In this document: one piece after another, positions 23,630 to 31,067 of the stretch
Layout of the letters: the number at the start of each line of letters is the position of its first letter
How positions within the stretch are numbered: position 1 is the stretch's first letter
Source of the DNA: Natronolimnohabitans innermongolicus JCM 12255
Lineage (GTDB): Archaea > Halobacteriota > Halobacteria > Halobacteriales > Natrialbaceae
DNA: 32,069 nucleotides
Direction of reading: 5' to 3'
NCBI RefSeq assembly: GCF_000337215.1
Contig: NZ_AOHZ01000018.1
Coordinates: forward strand, 87,753-119,821
Translations under genes and position numbers: made by a program
Notes under the pieces: generated by a model
What the model saw: only the letters and a program-made list of their open reading frames with translations
What the model was told of the DNA's origin: nothing
Databases searched by the model: none

Positions 23630-23782
23630 AGAACGACTCACCATCCCGGGGTGCTTGAAAGGCGAGCCACGCAGACGACGGGACCGTCGGTGTGACTCGA
23701 ATGGTGGGGGACTCGAGTGACGGCAACCGGCTCGAGAAGTGGGAACTCGAGGTGAGGGCCGAGACCGAGGGGAACGCCCCAC

Positions 23783-23801
23783 ACCCCTCGTTCAGACTGA
23801 A
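23783..23801 (-). promoter_or_regulatory. outlying ORB-like Orc1 binding site
   Basis: On the minus strand it reads TTCAGTCTGAACGAGGGGT, which is the dyad plus G-string layout of the boxes in the origin at 27.7-28.8 kb. The dyad half is the perfect TTCAG-A-CTGAA form. It is about 4 kb from the origin, between two divergent metabolic/transport genes. Confidence 0.65.
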
Positions 23802-23829
23802 ATAGGTGTTGATGATGGATGGATCGTGC

Positions 23830-23872
23830 GAGGACGGTGCGCTCGAGACGCGTGAGGACGGTGCGCTCGAGA
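23830..23872. repeat. two direct copies of a 19-bp sequence
   Basis: GAGGACGGTGCGCTCGAGA occurs at 23830-23848 and again at 23854-23872, a period of 24 nt. It lies in the untranslated region ahead of the transporter gene, downstream of the ORB-like site. Confidence 0.8.
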
Positions 23873-23969
23873 AGGTTGCAGCGTGTCGAACGGCGACGAC
23901 GGACGAACCGGCGTTTGCGTCGACGGAAGCCGTACACTTACGCCCACGCCGTCGAACTGTCGAGCGGGG

Positions 23970-24968
23970 ATGGATTTCGTCGAAACGTACCAGACCGTGC
24001 TCGTCTTCGGAGCGATCGTCGGCGGCCTCGCGCTCGGTCAGGTCCCCGGTGTCGCACCCATTGCGGACGCGCTTCTTCTCCCGTTCCTGATGGTGATGCT
24101 GTTCGGCGCGTTCGCGGGGATGCCGCTCTCGAGGCTCCGAGCCGCCTTCGGAAACCGTCGCGTCGCCGGCTCGAGTCTCCTGGTGAATTTCGTCTGGAAT
24201 CCCGTCCTCGCCGTCGTTCTCGGGGCGGTTTTCCTGCGCGAGCATCCCGCGCTGTGGGTCGGCCTGCTCATGCTCATGGTCACGCCGTGTACGGACTGGT
24301 ACCTGATCTTCACCGATATCGCCGACGGCGACGTTCCGCTTGCGACGTCCATCCTCCCGTACAATCTCGTCTTGCAACTCGTCCTGTTGCCCGTCTACCT
24401 CTACGCGTTCGCGGGCGAACTCGTCGACCTACCGCTCGAGCTACTGATCGAGAGCGTCGTTCTGGTGTTGCTCGTCCCGCTCGTTCTCGCCGTGATCGCT
24501 CGACGGGGACTGACCCGCTGGCGAAGCGACCGGTGGTTTCGACGGTCGTTTCTCCCGAAACTCAGCCCGCTTCAGGTCATCTTTCTGAGTCTCGCTATCG
24601 GCGCGATGTTTGCTTCGCAGGGTCAGGAGGTGGTAGAGAATCCGACGCTGCTCGCACTGCTTGCGGTCCCGGTCGTCCTGTTCTACGCCATCAATCTCGC
24701 GCTCGGGGTCGGAATCGGGCGGGCGCTATCGTTCTCGTACGGAGAGCTGGTCTGTTTCAACAATACGGTCCTGTCACGGAACTCCCCGACCGCGCTCGCG
24801 ATCGCGGTCGTTGCGTTTCCACACGAGCCGTTGATTCCGCTCGCGCTGGTCATCGGGCCGCTGTTGGAACTCCCGCTGTTAGGGGTCATCGCACGGGTAC
24901 ATCAGGGGATTCGGAGACGAGAGTGGTGGGCAGCCGACTCGACCGTGTCGGCCGATAGAGATGCGTAA
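23970..24968 (+). CDS. ACR3 / bile-acid:sodium symporter-like transporter (arsenic resistance type)
   Basis: 332-residue integral membrane protein with about ten hydrophobic helices, the size of the bile-acid:Na+ symporter/ACR3 superfamily. The first half contains FLMVMLFGAFAGMPLSRL and the conserved helix break MLMVTPCTDWYLIFTDIADGD, whose Pro-Cys resembles the essential PC of ACR3 arsenite exporters. In the second half VCFNNTVLSRNSPTALAIAV is the matching discontinuous helix with an N-P break. Relatives are often annotated as arsenic resistance proteins. No arsR or arsC lies nearby, so the substrate could instead be another anion. The ATG at 23970 is favoured by a TATA-like box 30 nt upstream. 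The stop lies inside a tandem repeat. Confidence 0.82.
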   Translation: MDFVETYQTVLVFGAIVGGLALGQVPGVAPIADALLLPFLMVMLFGAFAGMPLSRLRAAFGNRRVAGSSLLVNFVWNPVLAVVLGAVFLREHPALWVGLLMLMVTPCTDWYLIFTDIADGDVPLATSILPYNLVLQLVLLPVYLYAFAGELVDLPLELLIESVVLVLLVPLVLAVIARRGLTRWRSDRWFRRSFLPKLSPLQVIFLSLAIGAMFASQGQEVVENPTLLALLAVPVVLFYAINLALGVGIGRALSFSYGELVCFNNTVLSRNSPTALAIAVVAFPHEPLIPLALVIGPLLELPLLGVIARVHQGIRRREWWAADSTVSADRDA

Positions 24969-25067
24969 CGTCGGTGCTGTAACGGAGACGCGTAACGTCG
25001 GTGCTGTAACGGAGATGCGTAGTACCGGCGTCGCAACTGAGATGCGTGACGTCCGCGCTGCCGTGCT
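24960..25067. repeat. four tandem 27-bp repeats between convergent genes
   Basis: Units start at 24960, 24987, 25014 and 25041. The first two are identical except one base (GATGCGTAACGTCGG... versus GACGCG...). The third and fourth keep the GATGCGT start and are more divergent. The array begins within the transporter's last codons and ends on the stop codon of the convergent acidic protein. The period is a multiple of three, so it encodes a 9-residue repeat in any frame, but no gene uses it. Confidence 0.85.
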
Positions 25068-26212
25068 TAGCCCTGCTTATCACGGTATTCGTCTTCGATC
25101 GGCTGCGCTCCGTCGCCGGCACCGAGGGACTCACCCTCCTCGAAGGCATCTTGCGGATCGTCCCACTCCTCGAGCGGCCACGGCTCGGATTCGCCCATCT
25201 CGATCTGGTTGCGCTCGGTCGCCCAGCCGGCGTCGGTCGCCTGCGAGATTCCGGCTTCGTAGCCCGCGTAGTACTGGGCGATCATTTCGGCGGCGAGTTC
25301 GCGCTCTTCGTCGGACCACTGGTCGTCGTTCTCGCCGTCGTCGCCGTTCTCGTCACTGTCGTCACCGTTCTCGCCGTTCGCGCCATCGTCAGCGGCGGGA
25401 GAGACGACGACGTCGTACGTGCTTTCGTAGTGGTCCGCCTCGAGGGTCACCGGGATCTCGGTCGGTTCTTCGACGTCGGGCATCTCGCCGGTGAGGATCA
25501 CGTCGGTGCCGTAGTCGGCGAGCCCGCTCCCGCCGGCGGCGGCCTCGTAGCTGGTGGTGTCGACGACTTCGCCGTCGACGCGCAGTTCGGCGTCACCGCT
25601 CACTTGCTCGTTGGCGTGGATGAGAATTCCGAAATCGTATGACTCTCCGGCTTCACCCGACGGCGTCATGACGTGGTACTCGACCTCCTCGATCGGATCC
25701 TCGGCTGCGTCGTCGGGGTCGTCGTCCCCTTCGGCTGGCTCGACGGGAGCCTCGGCTGCGTCGTCAGCGCCGTTCTCTGTCGGGGCCTCGTCGCCGTCCG
25801 ATTCCTCGCCATTCGACGTCTCACCGTTCGCAGACGACGCGTCGTCGTCACCGACTTCGGCTGGCCGTTCGACGCCGTTCTCGGTCGGCGGGTCGTCAGT
25901 GTCCCCGTCCGACGTGTCCGTGCTATCGTCCTCGTCCCCGCCGTTCGCACCGCCTTCGTCGGTCTCGTCCGCGCCGTTGCCGTCACCCGTCTCGTCGTCA
26001 CTCGGACCTGTATCGTCACTCGAAGCAGCATCTTGATCGCCTTCGTCGGTCGCGATCTGATCGTCGTCGGTCTCGTTGTCATCGTCGATCGCTGGCACGA
26101 CGCTGGCGCCGGCGAACGCGACGCCGCCGACCAGGAGCCCGACCGCCAGGAGGACGGCGACGACGCCGACGGCGAGTTGCGTAGTCGTGAGTTGGGATGC
26201 GCGTCCACTCAT
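25067..26212 (-). CDS. acidic, low-complexity surface protein
   Basis: 381 residues from the ATG of MSGRASQLTTTQ. One N-terminal hydrophobic segment (LAVGVVAVLLAVGLLVGGVAFAG, about 13-35) is a signal anchor. Residues ~40-165 are almost only Asp, Glu, Gly, Asn, Thr and Ser with many N-G/N-x-T spots, a disordered spacer suited to glycosylation. A folded segment follows (~168-285): VEYHVMTPSGEAGESYDFGI through VTLEADHYESTYDVVV looks like a beta-sandwich. After a second acidic linker, the C-terminal region WSDEERELAAEMIAQYYAGYEAG is helical. Not recognised; probably a cell-surface protein. It ends inside the 27-bp repeat array. Confidence 0.75.
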   Translation of the reverse strand: MSGRASQLTTTQLAVGVVAVLLAVGLLVGGVAFAGASVVPAIDDDNETDDDQIATDEGDQDAASSDDTGPSDDETGDGNGADETDEGGANGGDEDDSTDTSDGDTDDPPTENGVERPAEVGDDDASSANGETSNGEESDGDEAPTENGADDAAEAPVEPAEGDDDPDDAAEDPIEEVEYHVMTPSGEAGESYDFGILIHANEQVSGDAELRVDGEVVDTTSYEAAAGGSGLADYGTDVILTGEMPDVEEPTEIPVTLEADHYESTYDVVVSPAADDGANGENGDDSDENGDDGENDDQWSDEERELAAEMIAQYYAGYEAGISQATDAGWATERNQIEMGESEPWPLEEWDDPQDAFEEGESLGAGDGAQPIEDEYRDKQG

Positions 26213-26351
26213 AACGCAGCACCTACCTGTTAGCAATGGTAGTTATCCGTGTGCTACAGCGTCGACAGCCGCGGAAATAGTTCATTTTGCTGTCGTTCGG
26301 GATCGGCGCCGTTGCTCCGTCCGCTGTGCGCTGACCGTCTCTGACGTACCG

Positions 26352-26410: not shown

Positions 26411-27700
26411 TCAGGAGAACGACGAGAGATCCACGTCCCGGTCGCGTCCGGCGGCTCCGCCGCCGCTGTCTGCGAGTCGGTCGTACGGCGGCAGCTCCTC
26501 GAGCGAACTGTCTCGCCGGACGGCCTTGACGATGTGTTTGGGATCGGTGACGAGTCGGTGGAGGAGGTAGCTGCCCTGCGAGCGGCCGCCGCCGGTCTTC
26601 TCGGATTCGATGACGCCGAGGAAGGCCTGTTCTTTGAGCTGGCGGTAGAGTCCGTTTTCCGTGATGGGATCGGTCGCGACCAGCTCGCAGATGTCGACGT
26701 AGCGCTCGTAGATCTCGCGGGTCTTGTAGGTCTCGCGCTCGCCGGTGATGATGTGACTCGCCAGCGCGTAGAGGGCGAGTTTGGCGTGGACGGTCGCGCC
26801 GCTCGTGAGCTCCTCGATGCGGTTGATCTCGGCGACCTCCTGGGCCTGTTTGATGTGGGTCTCCGCGACGCCCTCGGAACCGGTGCGTCGTGCGAGTTCG
26901 CCCGCTTCCTTGAGGATCTCGATCGCCTTGCGCGCGTCGCCGTGTTTCTTCGCTGCGAGTGCAGCACAGAGCTCGATGGTCCCATCCTCGAGGACGCCGG
27001 GCTGGAAGGCGTCCTCGCGATTTCGCATGATCTCCCGGAGCTGGGAGGCGTCGTAGGGATGAAAGAACAGCTCTCGGTGCCCGAAGCTGCTGTCGATGCG
27101 CTCGTCTAACGTCTCGCGGTATTTGACCTTGTTACTGATGCCGATGACGCCGATGTAGGCGCTGGTCTTTCGGGCTTCGCGAGCGCGAGAGAGTTGCATC
27201 AGGATGTTGGAGTTGTCGAGTTTGTCGATCTCGTCTAAGATGACGATGACCGCATCGAAGAAGTCCTCGAGGATCTCCCAGATGTGCTGGTAGTACTCCA
27301 TCGTGCCGACGCCGCGGACGGGGATGTTCTCCTCGTAGCCCGTCTGTTCTTTCAGACTCAGCGCCATCTGTCGCGTCGCCCGCGTTTCCGTGTTCGCTTC
27401 CGAGCAGTCGACGTAGAGCACGCCGCAGTCGATCTCGTTTCCTCGAGCGGCGCTTTGAGCGCGCGTCGCGACGTGACGCGAGATGAGACTCTTCCCGGTG
27501 CCGGTCTTGCCGTAGATCATCACGTTGTTCGGCGGATCGCCCCGCGTGATCGCACCGACCTCGGCGGCGACGGACTCGATCTCGTCGTCCCGCCCGACGA
27601 TCCGATCCTCCTCGGGAACGTGCCCGACGTGGAGGAGCTCCTTCCGATTGAAGATCGGATCGTGTGATTGAAAGAGCGGGTCCCCTGCCTGATCAGCCAT
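26411..27700 (-). CDS. orc1: Orc1/Cdc6 replication initiator
   Basis: 429-residue AAA+ initiator that binds ORBs, melts the origin and helps load MCM. Walker A GKTGTGKS is at residues 64-71, Walker B VIVILDEID at 151-159, the sensor-1 Asn in GISNKVKYRE at ~190, and sensor-2 Arg257 in GDARKAIEIL. A C-terminal winged helix (~300-400) with SYLLHRLV follows. The N-terminus FNRKELLHVGHVPEEDRIVGRDDEI is strongly family-typical, and the start ATG at 27700 sits 24 nt after a TATA box. Transcription runs away from a gene-free region full of ORBs, the arrangement of a conserved orc/cdc6-linked origin (oriC1 type). An ORB half-site just upstream of its promoter suggests self-regulation. Confidence 0.97.
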   Translation of the reverse strand: MADQAGDPLFQSHDPIFNRKELLHVGHVPEEDRIVGRDDEIESVAAEVGAITRGDPPNNVMIYGKTGTGKSLISRHVATRAQSAARGNEIDCGVLYVDCSEANTETRATRQMALSLKEQTGYEENIPVRGVGTMEYYQHIWEILEDFFDAVIVILDEIDKLDNSNILMQLSRAREARKTSAYIGVIGISNKVKYRETLDERIDSSFGHRELFFHPYDASQLREIMRNREDAFQPGVLEDGTIELCAALAAKKHGDARKAIEILKEAGELARRTGSEGVAETHIKQAQEVAEINRIEELTSGATVHAKLALYALASHIITGERETYKTREIYERYVDICELVATDPITENGLYRQLKEQAFLGVIESEKTGGGRSQGSYLLHRLVTDPKHIVKAVRRDSSLEELPPYDRLADSGGGAAGRDRDVDLSSFS

Positions 27701-27723
27701 ATCTCGCTTCTCGAAGACGGTCG

Positions 27724-27733
27724 TAATAAATCT
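27724..27733 (-). promoter_or_regulatory. TATA box of orc1
   Basis: On the minus strand this reads AGATTTATTA, with 23 nt between it and the orc1 ATG at 27700, so the transcript is essentially leaderless. Confidence 0.65.
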
Positions 27734-27744
27734 ATGGAAGGTAG

Positions 27745-27755
27745 TTCAGACTGAT
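27745..27755. promoter_or_regulatory. degenerate ORB half-site at the orc1 promoter
   Basis: TTCAGACTGAT keeps the ORB dyad (one base off the perfect TTCAG-A-CTGAA) but lacks the CCCCTCG G-string. It ends 11 bp upstream of the orc1 TATA box. Confidence 0.45.
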
Positions 27756-27817
27756 AACAACCCTCGATACGGCCTTCTAACCGGTGTTTCGACCGCATTC
27801 CCTCGAGGACATCTCGG

Positions 27818-27835
27818 TCCCGGATTCAGACTGAA
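27818..27835 (-). promoter_or_regulatory. ORB-like element, degenerate G-string
   Basis: TCCCGGATTCAGACTGAA has the perfect TTCAG-A-CTGAA dyad at 27825-27835, with CCCGGA where the strong boxes have CCCCTCG. It is the outermost box on the left arm of the origin that still shows both parts. Confidence 0.5.
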
Positions 27836-27915
27836 GAGTGTGACGACCGGTTCGAGACCGGTCGGCGGCGAGATCGGTCGTTGTGACCCGTGAAACGATC
27901 GGCGGTGGGGGAGGG

Positions 27916-27935
27916 ACCCCTCGTTCAGAGTGTAA
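27916..27935 (-). promoter_or_regulatory. ORB, left inner
   Basis: ACCCCTCGTTCAGAGTGTAA on the plus strand, so the box reads towards the left with its G-string distal to the AT-rich element. It mirrors the box at 28229. Confidence 0.85.
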
Positions 27936-27945
27936 CGGTGGTCGA

Positions 27946-27969
27946 GGGTGGGGGAGGGGTGGCGGTGGG
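27946..27969 (+). other. G-quadruplex-forming motif inside the origin
   Basis: Four G-runs are separated by loops of 1, 1 and 7 nt: GGG (27946-27948), GGGGG (27950-27954), GGGG (27956-27959) and GGG (27967-27969). That meets the canonical G3+N1-7 pattern. It lies 10 bp inside the left inner ORB, on the side of the unwinding element. Confidence 0.65.
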
Positions 27970-28017
27970 TGGTCGTGTGGAGTAACGCCGAACGCTGTCG
28001 ATACGGCCGAATATTCG

Positions 28018-28156
28018 ACGAGACTCTCTCTCTCTCAACGAGAGACTATTCCTACTACTCTCTCTACTACTCTAGCTAGACCGCTAGACTAGTAGTATTA
28101 TATTTTACTACTGAGGAAGATAGATCCTCCTTCCGAATGGTTATTATTGTATTCTG
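28018..28156. other. AT-rich duplex-unwinding element with inverted repeats
   Basis: This is visibly the most AT-rich stretch of the window. It starts with a CT repeat facing CGAGAGA (28024-28046). It then has an imperfect inverted repeat at 28065-28097 (TACTACTCTAGC against GCTAGACTAGTAGTA), and AGTAGTA/TACTACT arms (28091-28097 and 28106-28112) around TTATATTT. It is centred between the inner ORBs and is the likely site of first melting. Confidence 0.8.
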
Positions 28157-28206
28157 GACCTCACTCTCGACCTCCGTCTCGGACCATCGACTCTCGCCGA
28201 ATTCAA

Positions 28207-28222
28207 CCCCCTCCCTCCCACC
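28207..28222 (-). other. C-tract (G-rich on minus) mirroring the left G-rich motif
   Basis: CCCCC-T-CCC-T-CCC-A-CC on the plus strand is G-rich on the minus strand and lies 6 bp inside the right inner ORB. It has three runs of three or more and a final run of two, so it is a weaker quadruplex candidate than the left tract. Confidence 0.55.
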
Positions 28223-28228
28223 ACGCTC

Positions 28229-28250
28229 TTTCACTCTGAACGACGGGGGT
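28229..28250 (+). promoter_or_regulatory. ORB, right inner
   Basis: TTTCACTCTGAACGAC followed by GGGGGT, with the G-string pointing away from the AT-rich element. It is the inverted partner of the box at 27916-27935. Confidence 0.88.
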
Positions 28251-28401
28251 GGGTCCAGGGTCGAGTCACGGCGGAACCGGAATGGATCCAGAAACGAGTA
28301 CACGCCATCACCGATGTTAGCTTCCAACAATCGTCACAACCGGGTTTGCAGCTACTACCGTCTGTCAGCGTATTCGAGAGAACTCACTCGAGAGAACGCA
28401 C

Positions 28402-28420
28402 ACCCCTCGTTCAGAGTGAA
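28402..28420 (-). promoter_or_regulatory. ORB, first of an inverted pair
   Basis: ACCCCTCGTTCAGAGTGAA on plus. Together with the box at 28459 it makes an inverted pair with 38 bp between, G-strings outward. Confidence 0.87.
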
Positions 28421-28458
28421 TTACGACGCCGTCAACACCCGTCCCGACTCGTGGACCG

Positions 28459-28480
28459 TTTCACTCTGAACGACGGGGGT
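28459..28480 (+). promoter_or_regulatory. ORB, second of an inverted pair
   Basis: The 22-bp sequence is identical to the right inner ORB at 28229-28250 (TTTCACTCTGAACGAC then GGGGGT). It is oriented with its G-string to the right. Confidence 0.88.
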
Positions 28481-28690
28481 CTCTCCCACCGTCTCTTCGC
28501 CCACCTCATTCCATCTTTCCCCACTCTATCCCGTCTCACCCTCTCTCATCCCATTCCACCTCATCAAACCCTATCCAACTCTTCTTGCCCGATTTCGACT
28601 CGAGCCCGGCCTCACGCTTACTCCCGGCCTCGCGCTTGCTCCCCTTCTCACTTGATTCCGACCGTTCTCACTCCCACAACTCCCACTGCT
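28481..28690. other. polypyrimidine-biased stretch
   Basis: About 200 bp in which the plus strand is dominated by C and T (for example CTCTCCCACCGTCTC and CTATCCCGTCTCACCCTC). It has no gene and no ORB and lies between the ORB at 28459 and the outermost ORB at 28732. Confidence 0.6.
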
Positions 28691-28731
28691 ACCCGCGCCG
28701 ATCCCGAGCGACCGTCTCCACTGCCGCCCGA

Positions 28732-28751
28732 TCACTCTGAGCGAGGGGTGT
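28732..28751 (+). promoter_or_regulatory. ORB next to the CitE-like gene promoter
   Basis: TCACTCTGAGCGAGGGGTGT differs from the inner boxes by one base in the dyad spacer (GAGC for GAAC). It ends 60 bp before the citE-like ATG at 28812 and about 20 bp before its likely TATA region (GAGATACTCC), so bound Orc1 could affect that promoter. Confidence 0.78.
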
Positions 28752-28811
28752 CCGTCGCTCCGAGCGTAGAACGGGAGATACTCCTATGGGTGTGGCTCGA
28801 TGACACATCGT

Positions 28812-29702
28812 ATGGTTCGCAGAAGCGTTCTGTTCACCCCTGGCGATCGCCCCGAAATGCTTCGCAAGGCGCCCGATTCGGGCGCGGACGTGATCGTGTT
28901 CGACCTCGAGGATGCGGTTGCACCGGCGCGAAAGACCGAGGCTCGCGAGGCGGTCCGCGAGGTATTGGCCGATCCCGCGTTCGATCCGGCGTGTGAGGTT
29001 TGCGTTCGGGTCAACGCCGCGGATTCGATGCGACGGGACGACCTCGGAACGATCCTGGACCCAGAGGTCGTCGGGTCCGACGGGGGCGAACGCGACGACG
29101 GGTTCCGCCTCGACAGCGTGATGCTCCCGAAGGTCGACGCGGCGGACGACGTCCGCGACCTCGCCGACGACCTCGCGACGTACGACGTATCGTTGCCGGT
29201 GTTCGCGTTGATCGAGAGCGCGGCGGGCGTCCTCGCGGCGCCGGAGATCGCGGCCGCTCGAGCGACGGACGCACTCGCGTTCGGCGCGGAGGATCTCTCG
29301 GCCGATATCGGGGCGACCCGGACCGCCGAGGGAACTGAAGTGCTTTACGCGCGCGAGCGCGTTGTGATCGCCGCCGGGGCCGAAGATTGTGACGCGATCG
29401 ACACGCTCGTTACCGACTTCGAGAACGAGCAGCAACTCCGGGAGGACGCCGCGTTCTCCGTCCAGCTCGGCTACGACGGAAAACTCGCGATCCATCCCGC
29501 CCAGATCGGGCCGATCAACGCCGCGTTCACGCCGACGGCCGAAGAACGCGAGTGGGCCACCCGCGTCCTCGAGGCCAAACGCGAGGCCGACGCCGAGGGG
29601 CGGGGCGTCTTTCAGGTCGACGGCGAGATGATCGACGCGCCGTTGATCGCTCGAGCCGAACGGATCGAAAAACGGGCGGCTGCATCCGACGGAAAGAAAT
29701 GA
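28812..29702 (+). CDS. CitE-like CoA ester lyase (HpcH/HpaI aldolase family)
   Basis: 296-residue TIM-barrel enzyme of the citrate-lyase-beta / malyl-CoA lyase group. VRRSVLFTPGDRPEML is the N-terminal signature, DVIVFDLEDAVAP the first Asp/Glu block, and VMLPKVD a barrel strand. IESAAGVLAAPEIA holds the metal-binding Glu, AFGAEDLSADIGA the metal-binding Asp region, and KLAIHPAQIGPIN the C-terminal signature. Relatives cleave malyl-CoA or beta-methylmalyl-CoA, or hydrolyse malyl-CoA. In haloarchaea these steps belong to the methylaspartate cycle, and the glutamate dehydrogenase downstream fits that. Which reaction applies is not readable here. An alternative ATG at 28800 adds four residues. 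The 109-nt gap to gdh has its own promoters. Confidence 0.9.
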   Translation: MVRRSVLFTPGDRPEMLRKAPDSGADVIVFDLEDAVAPARKTEAREAVREVLADPAFDPACEVCVRVNAADSMRRDDLGTILDPEVVGSDGGERDDGFRLDSVMLPKVDAADDVRDLADDLATYDVSLPVFALIESAAGVLAAPEIAAARATDALAFGAEDLSADIGATRTAEGTEVLYARERVVIAAGAEDCDAIDTLVTDFENEQQLREDAAFSVQLGYDGKLAIHPAQIGPINAAFTPTAEEREWATRVLEAKREADAEGRGVFQVDGEMIDAPLIARAERIEKRAAASDGKK

Positions 29703-29810: not shown

Positions 29811-31067
29811 ATGGCCGAGGACGCGAACCCTTTCGAAAGCCTGCAATCGCAGATCGACGAGGCCGCGACTCACATTGATGTCGCCGACGACGTGATCGAA
29901 CGGCTCAAATATCCTGAACGAGTTCTCGAGACGAATCTTACGGTCGAACTGGACGACGGCACCCTCGAGCGCTTCAAGGCGTTTCGCTCGCAGTTCAACG
30001 GTGACCGCGGCCCCTACAAGGGCGGTATTCGCTACCACCCACAGGTCTCCCGCGACGAGGTGAAGGCGCTGTCGGGTTGGATGACCTACAAGACGGCGAT
30101 CGTCGACATCCCGCTTGGCGGCGGCAAGGGCGGAATCGTCATCGATCCCGACAACTACTCCGAGAGCGAACTCGAGCGCGTTACGCGAACGTTCGCTACG
30201 GAGTTGCGGCCGCTGATCGGCGAGGACCGCGACGTTCCCGCACCCGACGTGAACACGGGTCAGCGGGAGATGAACTGGATCAAAGACACCTACGAGACGC
30301 TCGAGAACACGACGGAGCCGGGTGTCATCACCGGGAAAAACCTCGCCAGCGGCGGCAGCGAGGGTCGCGTCGAGGCGACGGGTCGGTCGACGGTCCTCGC
30401 CGCTCGCGAGGCCTTCGACTACCTCGACAAGGATCTCGAGGGCGCGACGGTCGCCGTCCAGGGCTACGGGAACGCCGGCTGGATCGCCGCGAAACTGATC
30501 GACGAGATGGGTGCGACGGTCGTCGCCGCCAGCGACTCTTCGGGCGGGATCTACAACCCCGACGGCTTCGATCCCGTCGCCGCGAAAGACCACAAAAACG
30601 AGACCGGCAGCATCGTCGGCTACGAGGAAAGCGAGGAGGAGATCACGAACGAGGACGTCCTGACGATGGACGTCGACCTCCTGATTCCCGCGGCGCTGGA
30701 GAACGCCATCGACGCCGACCTCGCTGAAGCGGTCGAGGCCGACGTCATCTCCGAGGCCGCAAACGGGCCGCTGACGCCCGCCGCCGACGAAGTCCTCGAG
30801 GGCAAAGACGTCTTCGTCATCCCGGACATTCTGGCCAACGCCGGTGGCGTCACCGTCTCCTACTTCGAGTGGGTCCAGAACCGTGACCGCTTCTACTGGA
30901 GCGAAGAGAAGGTCAACGAAGAACTCGAAGGCCACATCGTCAACGCCTTCGACGCGCTCGTCGAAACCTACGAGGAGCACAACCTCGACAACCCTCGGAC
31001 CGCAGCCTACGTCGTCGCGATTCAGCGCGTGGCCAACTCGTTCGAGGAGTCCGGCAGCTGGCCCTGA
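29811..31067 (+). CDS. gdhA: glutamate dehydrogenase
   Basis: 418-residue Glu/Leu/Phe/Val dehydrogenase that interconverts glutamate and 2-oxoglutarate + ammonia. The substrate lysines are in [12 protein letters not shown] (Lys70), GWMTYKTA (Lys94) and PLGGGKGGI (Lys106). [15 protein letters not shown] carries the catalytic Asp, with NTG in place of the usual [28 protein letters not shown] leads into the Rossmann domain with [30 protein letters not shown] is the C-terminal signature. The length is normal for archaeal hexameric GDH. Coenzyme preference is not clear. Sitting beside a CitE-like lyase, it may supply glutamate for the methylaspartate cycle, besides general nitrogen assimilation. 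Confidence 0.96.

Follow-up and report, generated by a model that had tools for sequence, protein, structure and literature searches.

In haloarchaea, the name oriC1 is given by definition to the origin adjoining the Orc/Cdc6 that all haloarchaea have in common (PMC3528665), and at oriC1 of H. hispanica G-rich inverted arms act as an enhancer (PMC3936714). At oriC2 of H. hispanica, ORBs downstream of the initiator gene lower origin activity, probably through initiator titration (PMC3936714). The oriC4-cdc6H pair of H. mediterranei is a dormant origin with inverted ORBs, a recent acquisition that is found in three Haloferax species and is rare (PMC4595724), and the oriC5-cdc6-oriC6 fragment of Natrinema sp. 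J7 (ARS3, pFJ3) replicates autonomously with weak transformation (PMC5350488). The locus compared here with these systems lies in a stretch of 32,069 nucleotides of Natronolimnohabitans innermongolicus JCM 12255 (contig NZ_AOHZ01000018.1, positions 87,753 to 119,821), referred to as the window; the source assembly, a draft, comprises 121 contigs, and that of the window stops ~4 kb beyond the origin locus. With a probability of about 0.7, the locus is a secondary, dispensable, lineage-specific origin module of Natrialbaceae with probable autoregulation and initiator titration, and not oriC1.

The initiator gene and its upstream ORBs

The original prediction of an orc1-linked origin named at least five strong ORBs, two degenerate ones and an intact orc1/cdc6 gene next to them, and each of these was recovered (Table 1). 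The gene is an intact orc/cdc6 of more than 300 aa that encodes AAA+ and winged-helix regions, and the intergenic region beside it contains G-string ORBs. A weight matrix made from 151 sites of the window locus and related loci, the window's own sites included, gave the consensus TTTCACTCTGAACGAGGGGTG and scored six window sites at 23-38 bits, of which the five upstream of orc1 reach 23.3-36.2 bits, against a top score of 11.3 in 60 windows simulated with a first-order Markov model. The ORBs are real even though the matrix contains the window's own sites, because direct matching alone suffices: without a matrix, four matches to the ORB consensus with at most three mismatches were found, versus none in 100 shuffles. 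One of the four, matched at 23781, is the ORB downstream of orc1, which lies beyond the interval considered originally and had been missed. In a repeat search, three direct copies similar to one another came up together with inverted counterparts. The two degenerate sites are conserved ORB cores that lack the G-string.

Table 1. Positions of the initiator gene, its ORBs and flanking features in the window.
Feature	Positions	Strand	Remarks
Downstream ORB, past the 3' end of orc1	23782..23802	-	38.0 bits
orc1/cdc6 initiator gene	26411..27700	-	Intact, 429 aa; Cdc6_lid and Cdc6_C (winged-helix) domains, TIGR02928
TATA-like box of orc1	27724..27731	-	5' end at -29/-30 in Natrialbaceae relatives
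Promoter ORB core without G-string, TATCAGTCTGAAC	27744..27756	-	Near the TATA-like box, on its upstream side
Second ORB core without full G-string	27824..27836	-	Core at -85 to -160 in 25/37 loci
ORB-A	27915..27935	-	34.6 bits; on the orc1 side of the AT-rich element, with the G-string pointing outward; orientation and position conserved
G-rich arm of the inverted repeat, on the inner side of ORB-A	27938..27973		The two arms have 15-16 G or C in 20 nt
AT-rich element, probable duplex unwinding element	28001..28160		AT content; nested inverted repeats 28064-28076/28083-28095
Opposite arm of G-rich/C-rich inverted repeat	28207..28223		Inside the ORB pair
ORB-B	28229..28249	+	34.1 bits; G-string outward
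ORB-C, auxiliary	28401..28421	-	36.2 bits
ORB-D, auxiliary	28459..28479	+	34.1 bits
Weaker outer ORB	28730..28750	+	23.3 bits; directly before the HpcH/HpaI-type lyase gene
HpcH/HpaI aldolase/citrate lyase family gene	28800..29702	+	PF03328; module flank
Glutamate dehydrogenase gene (gdh)	29811..31067	+	PF00208/PF02812; synteny-conserved module flank

ORB-A and ORB-B are inverted around the AT-rich element, where AT content is 54-66% over 28001-28150 compared with ~35% across the window. The element holds a 13-nt inverted repeat at 92%, and its foldback is only moderately better than that of shuffles (z -2.1). The pair, the element and the nested inverted repeats were all as predicted, but the two ORBs do not face each other: both G-strings are directed away from the element. 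Most relatives likewise have an outward ORB pair with an AT-rich stretch in between. The G-rich inverted repeat inside the pair had been overlooked; its G-rich/C-rich arms are clear in the window and in a good part of the relatives, and are weak or absent in several Natrinema, some of which combine absence of the repeat with a weaker ORB-A, a point that weighs against the secondary-origin reading. The repeat resembles the oriC1 enhancer of H. hispanica (PMC3936714); since it is present at the window locus, it is not a feature exclusive to oriC1.

Thirty-seven loci were compared, 34 from Natrialbaceae and three from Haloferacaceae. The layout of the 34, read in the orientation of orc1, consists of outer ORBs, an ORB pointing off the AT-rich element, the element itself, ORB-A, an ORB core at -53/-54, a TATA-like box from -29/-30, orc1, and one or two downstream ORBs. 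ORB-A faces orc1 from ~170-340 nt upstream of the start in the Natrialbaceae loci, and is present only in weak form in Natrinema zhouii. Sister species likewise have conserved ORBs next to the orthologous gene; this was one of the points on which the original prediction had offered itself for refutation, and there it held. The position of the TATA-like box is consistent with a leaderless orc1 transcript. Synteny with gdh extends across genera, and several loci have gdh/lyase on one side and an aldehyde dehydrogenase gene on the other. The same Orc family, with 74-76% identity and an identical ORB consensus, occurs in Halegenticoccus, Halobellus and Halogeometricum, at whose loci none of the window's neighbour genes is present. 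On a plasmid of Halobellus ramosii (NZ_CP101826.1), the same-family orc1 is followed by five tandem ORBs with 53-54 bp spacing (L211 7326-7559), and an outward ORB pair lies ~2.7-2.9 kb upstream of it. These tandem ORBs resemble plasmid iterons. They are also similar to the titration region oriC2D in H. hispanica (PMC3936714).

The promoter core and the downstream ORB

The promoter ORB core is found at -53/-54 in 34 of 34 Natrialbaceae loci, and its 8-mer in 36 of the 37 loci versus 10 occurrences in 486 kb of flanking DNA, which corresponds to ~0.001 per promoter-sized interval. This core is probably an Orc1 operator. The second core is missing in Natrialba and some Natronorubrum. Upstream of other Orc families, a promoter ORB core is clear in the genome's own paralogues L002, L003 and L010, and at L068/L069; none was found for the group with 53% identity, in a search that left out the minus-strand paralogues L004, L007 and L008 (the tabulation of conserved cores also omits L005 and L011). 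The pattern suggests that many, but not all, other Orc families have promoter ORBs. Feedback by an archaeal initiator through an ORB that lacks the G-string was not found in the literature searched.

All 37 loci, the three Haloferacaceae included, have an ORB downstream of orc1, in the position that is typical of oriC2D. Where measured, it usually lies 31-206 nt past the orc1 stop; the window's copy, from which extra DNA separates the stop by 2.6 kb, is still nearly perfect. The extra DNA (23803-26330, ~2.5 kb) contains ORFs without Pfam matches, one of which apparently encodes a secreted product, and its counterpart is absent at that place in a close relative (L017). The number of downstream ORBs is two in most Natrialba, three in Halogeometricum pallidum and five on the Halobellus ramosii plasmid. 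The single downstream ORB of the window is probably an initiator-titration site.

Distribution of the module and its relation to oriC1

The source genome encodes ~15 Orc/Cdc6-like genes, among which the window's orc1 belongs to a clade of its own in the Orc tree (100/100 support), with 83-95% identity within Natrialbaceae. Among eight sampled Natrialbaceae genomes without a window-type orc1, six gave no match to the ORB at two or fewer mismatches and two gave only stray ones. At the clean empty site of a genome that lacks the module (G062), 66 bp stand in place of the 2.39 kb that hold every ORB and orc1 in Natrinema zhouii, homology stopping at the position that matches 9480 and restarting at the one that matches 7091. 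When presence and absence are placed on a gdh tree, at least five state changes are required, three of them imposed by branches with good support. This patchy distribution is most simply explained if an old module was lost repeatedly; re-gain by recombination at the same site may be an alternative. A single ORB-like site of 23 bits in another genome without window-type orc1 (G094:C1:987458, L200:12457), ~6 kb from the lyase gene, is a possible relic. In Natronorubrum bangense the locus is identical on chromosome and plasmid, which first resembled plasmid use; every piece checked of NZ_CP031305.1 1-358 kb matches NZ_CP031306.1 1-358 kb reversed, and the two copies were excluded as evidence because this reversed identity over ~358 kb is probably assembly redundancy. 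A scan of viral contigs for the ORB pattern gave one match in each of ten contigs and no cluster, which is not meaningful.

The original prediction regarded the locus as a main, conserved chromosomal origin of the oriC1 type, with which it shares its general architecture (an outward pair of G-string ORBs, an AT-rich element and a G-rich inverted repeat inside the pair) and for which the conserved synteny with gdh could be cited. This assignment is opposed by another contig of the source genome, C52, which encodes the Orc/Cdc6 that defines oriC1: its product is clearly the one that corresponds to SsoCdc6-1 (365 bits versus 195 for the window's gene), clusters with SsoCdc6-1 and ApeOrc1 in the Orc tree (99/97 support), and belongs to a family found in 144 of 145 Halobacteria. 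Beside the C52 gene are canonical ORBs of the CCANNTGAAACGAAGGGG type, CCAGTTGAAACGAAGGGG(-) and CCACCTGAAACGAAGGGG(+), at C52:7834 and 8152, which flank an AT-rich region with G-rich/C-rich arms. ORBs of oriC1 type, at this locus as elsewhere, have the form CCANNTGAAACNAAGGGG with an extended G-string, which the window ORBs, conforming to the family consensus given above, do not. The window's orc1 is neither universal in haloarchaea nor related to SsoCdc6-1 in this way, its family being present in 17/145 Halobacteria and 58/117 Natrialbaceae genomes, and the block is absent as a whole from sister genomes. By its phylogenetic placement, the window's orc1 is not the oriC1 (Cdc6A) orthologue, and because the C52 gene is universal and the window's gene is found in only part of the genomes, the window locus is, by these comparisons of sequence, not oriC1, which in the source genome lies on C52. 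With the family assignment already contradicted, the chance that the window locus is the chromosome's main origin of oriC1 type is close to negligible. What stands of the original prediction is an orc1-linked haloarchaeal origin with G-string ORBs and an unwinding element; the true oriC1 is elsewhere in the genome, which corrects the origin's identity. The C52 region proposed as the true oriC1 (C52:7834-8668, L175) has another ORB, its third, right where the cdc6A-type gene of 597 aa starts.

Predicted origin function and comparison with known systems

From the observed sequence elements, their orientation, spacing and conservation, the family assignment, the block-wise presence and absence, and the co-occurrence of orc1 with ORBs, a pathway of Orc1 binding, unwinding, firing, autoregulation and titration can be predicted for a secondary origin at the window locus. 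Its own Orc1 would bind the outward ORB pair that flanks the AT-rich element and, by extension from the literature on archaeal initiators, load MCM at this element for bidirectional replication, the G-rich inverted repeat being a probable enhancer. Judging from position, Orc1 bound to the core without G-string at -54 of its own promoter would exert autoregulation, and the ORB beyond the 3' end of orc1 would draw off initiator. Initiator, origin and control sites are thus retained or lost together, as one block. A further, tentative reading, with somewhat less than even odds, is that of a self-contained control circuit in which one Orc1 family recognises sites of three kinds, arranged in a fixed geometry (ORBs with a G-string for firing, the G-string-less promoter core for feedback, and the downstream ORB for titration), the whole being retained or lost as a unit and tuned by the number of downstream boxes, with five ORBs at the plasmid-like end and one at the chromosomal end.

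The inversion of GC skew that was predicted to accompany the origin is absent from the locus in the Natrinema zhouii chromosome (half-sampled) and equally absent from the oriC1 of that chromosome, and the skew along the window's own contig is flat. Since GC skew is flat at a window-type locus and at oriC1 alike, it does not discriminate and was dropped as a test. The oriC5-cdc6-oriC6 fragment of Natrinema sp. J7 has five ORBs upstream and one downstream of cdc6 (PMC5350488), and the same count is found for the window-type locus in Natrinema gari, pallidum and altunense; on the strength of these ORB counts, pFJ3 would belong to the Orc family of the window, and its autonomous replication would then count in favour of the secondary-origin reading. 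The weak transformation by this probable counterpart (PMC5350488) is compatible with a dormant or relic origin that is complete but silent in wild type and usable only once other origins are deleted, as are the recurrent absence within genera that is evident from the gdh tree and the precedent of H. mediterranei oriC4 (PMC4595724). Dormancy of this kind is nevertheless unlikely at a locus where orc1, ORB orientation and the promoter core are strongly conserved over many genera; moreover, oriC4 is reported to be rare and of recent acquisition, and the window-type locus is neither. It is more doubtful still that the locus is the remnant of an integrated plasmid that no longer functions as an origin and retains its ORBs mostly as regulatory or titration sites of orc1: a fixed position adjacent to gdh across genera, flanked at several loci by the aldehyde dehydrogenase gene, and retention in most relatives of the ORB pair around an AT-rich stretch are set against the family member with iteron-like downstream ORBs on the Halobellus ramosii plasmid and the presence or absence of the locus as a block. 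The preferred reading is the secondary origin module outlined above.

Compared with oriC1 of H. hispanica (PMC3936714), the window locus differs in Orc/Cdc6 family and in ORB core, and possesses additional upstream ORBs and an ORB downstream of orc1. With H. mediterranei oriC4-cdc6H (PMC4595724) it shares the character of a complete extra origin-initiator pair besides oriC1 with a patchy distribution, but loci of the window type are syntenic over many genera of Natrialbaceae. With oriC2-cdc6E/oriC2D of H. hispanica (PMC3936714) it shares the presence of ORBs on both sides of the initiator gene, although oriC2D has 11 downstream ORBs and the window has one. The relatives of the window locus constitute a natural comparative series for the control of extra origins in archaea, in which the same initiator family and sites are accompanied by one to five downstream ORBs, and which is completed by sister genomes from which the module has been removed. 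The module is of a known kind; less expected are its invariant promoter core, its invariant downstream ORB and its block-wise loss.
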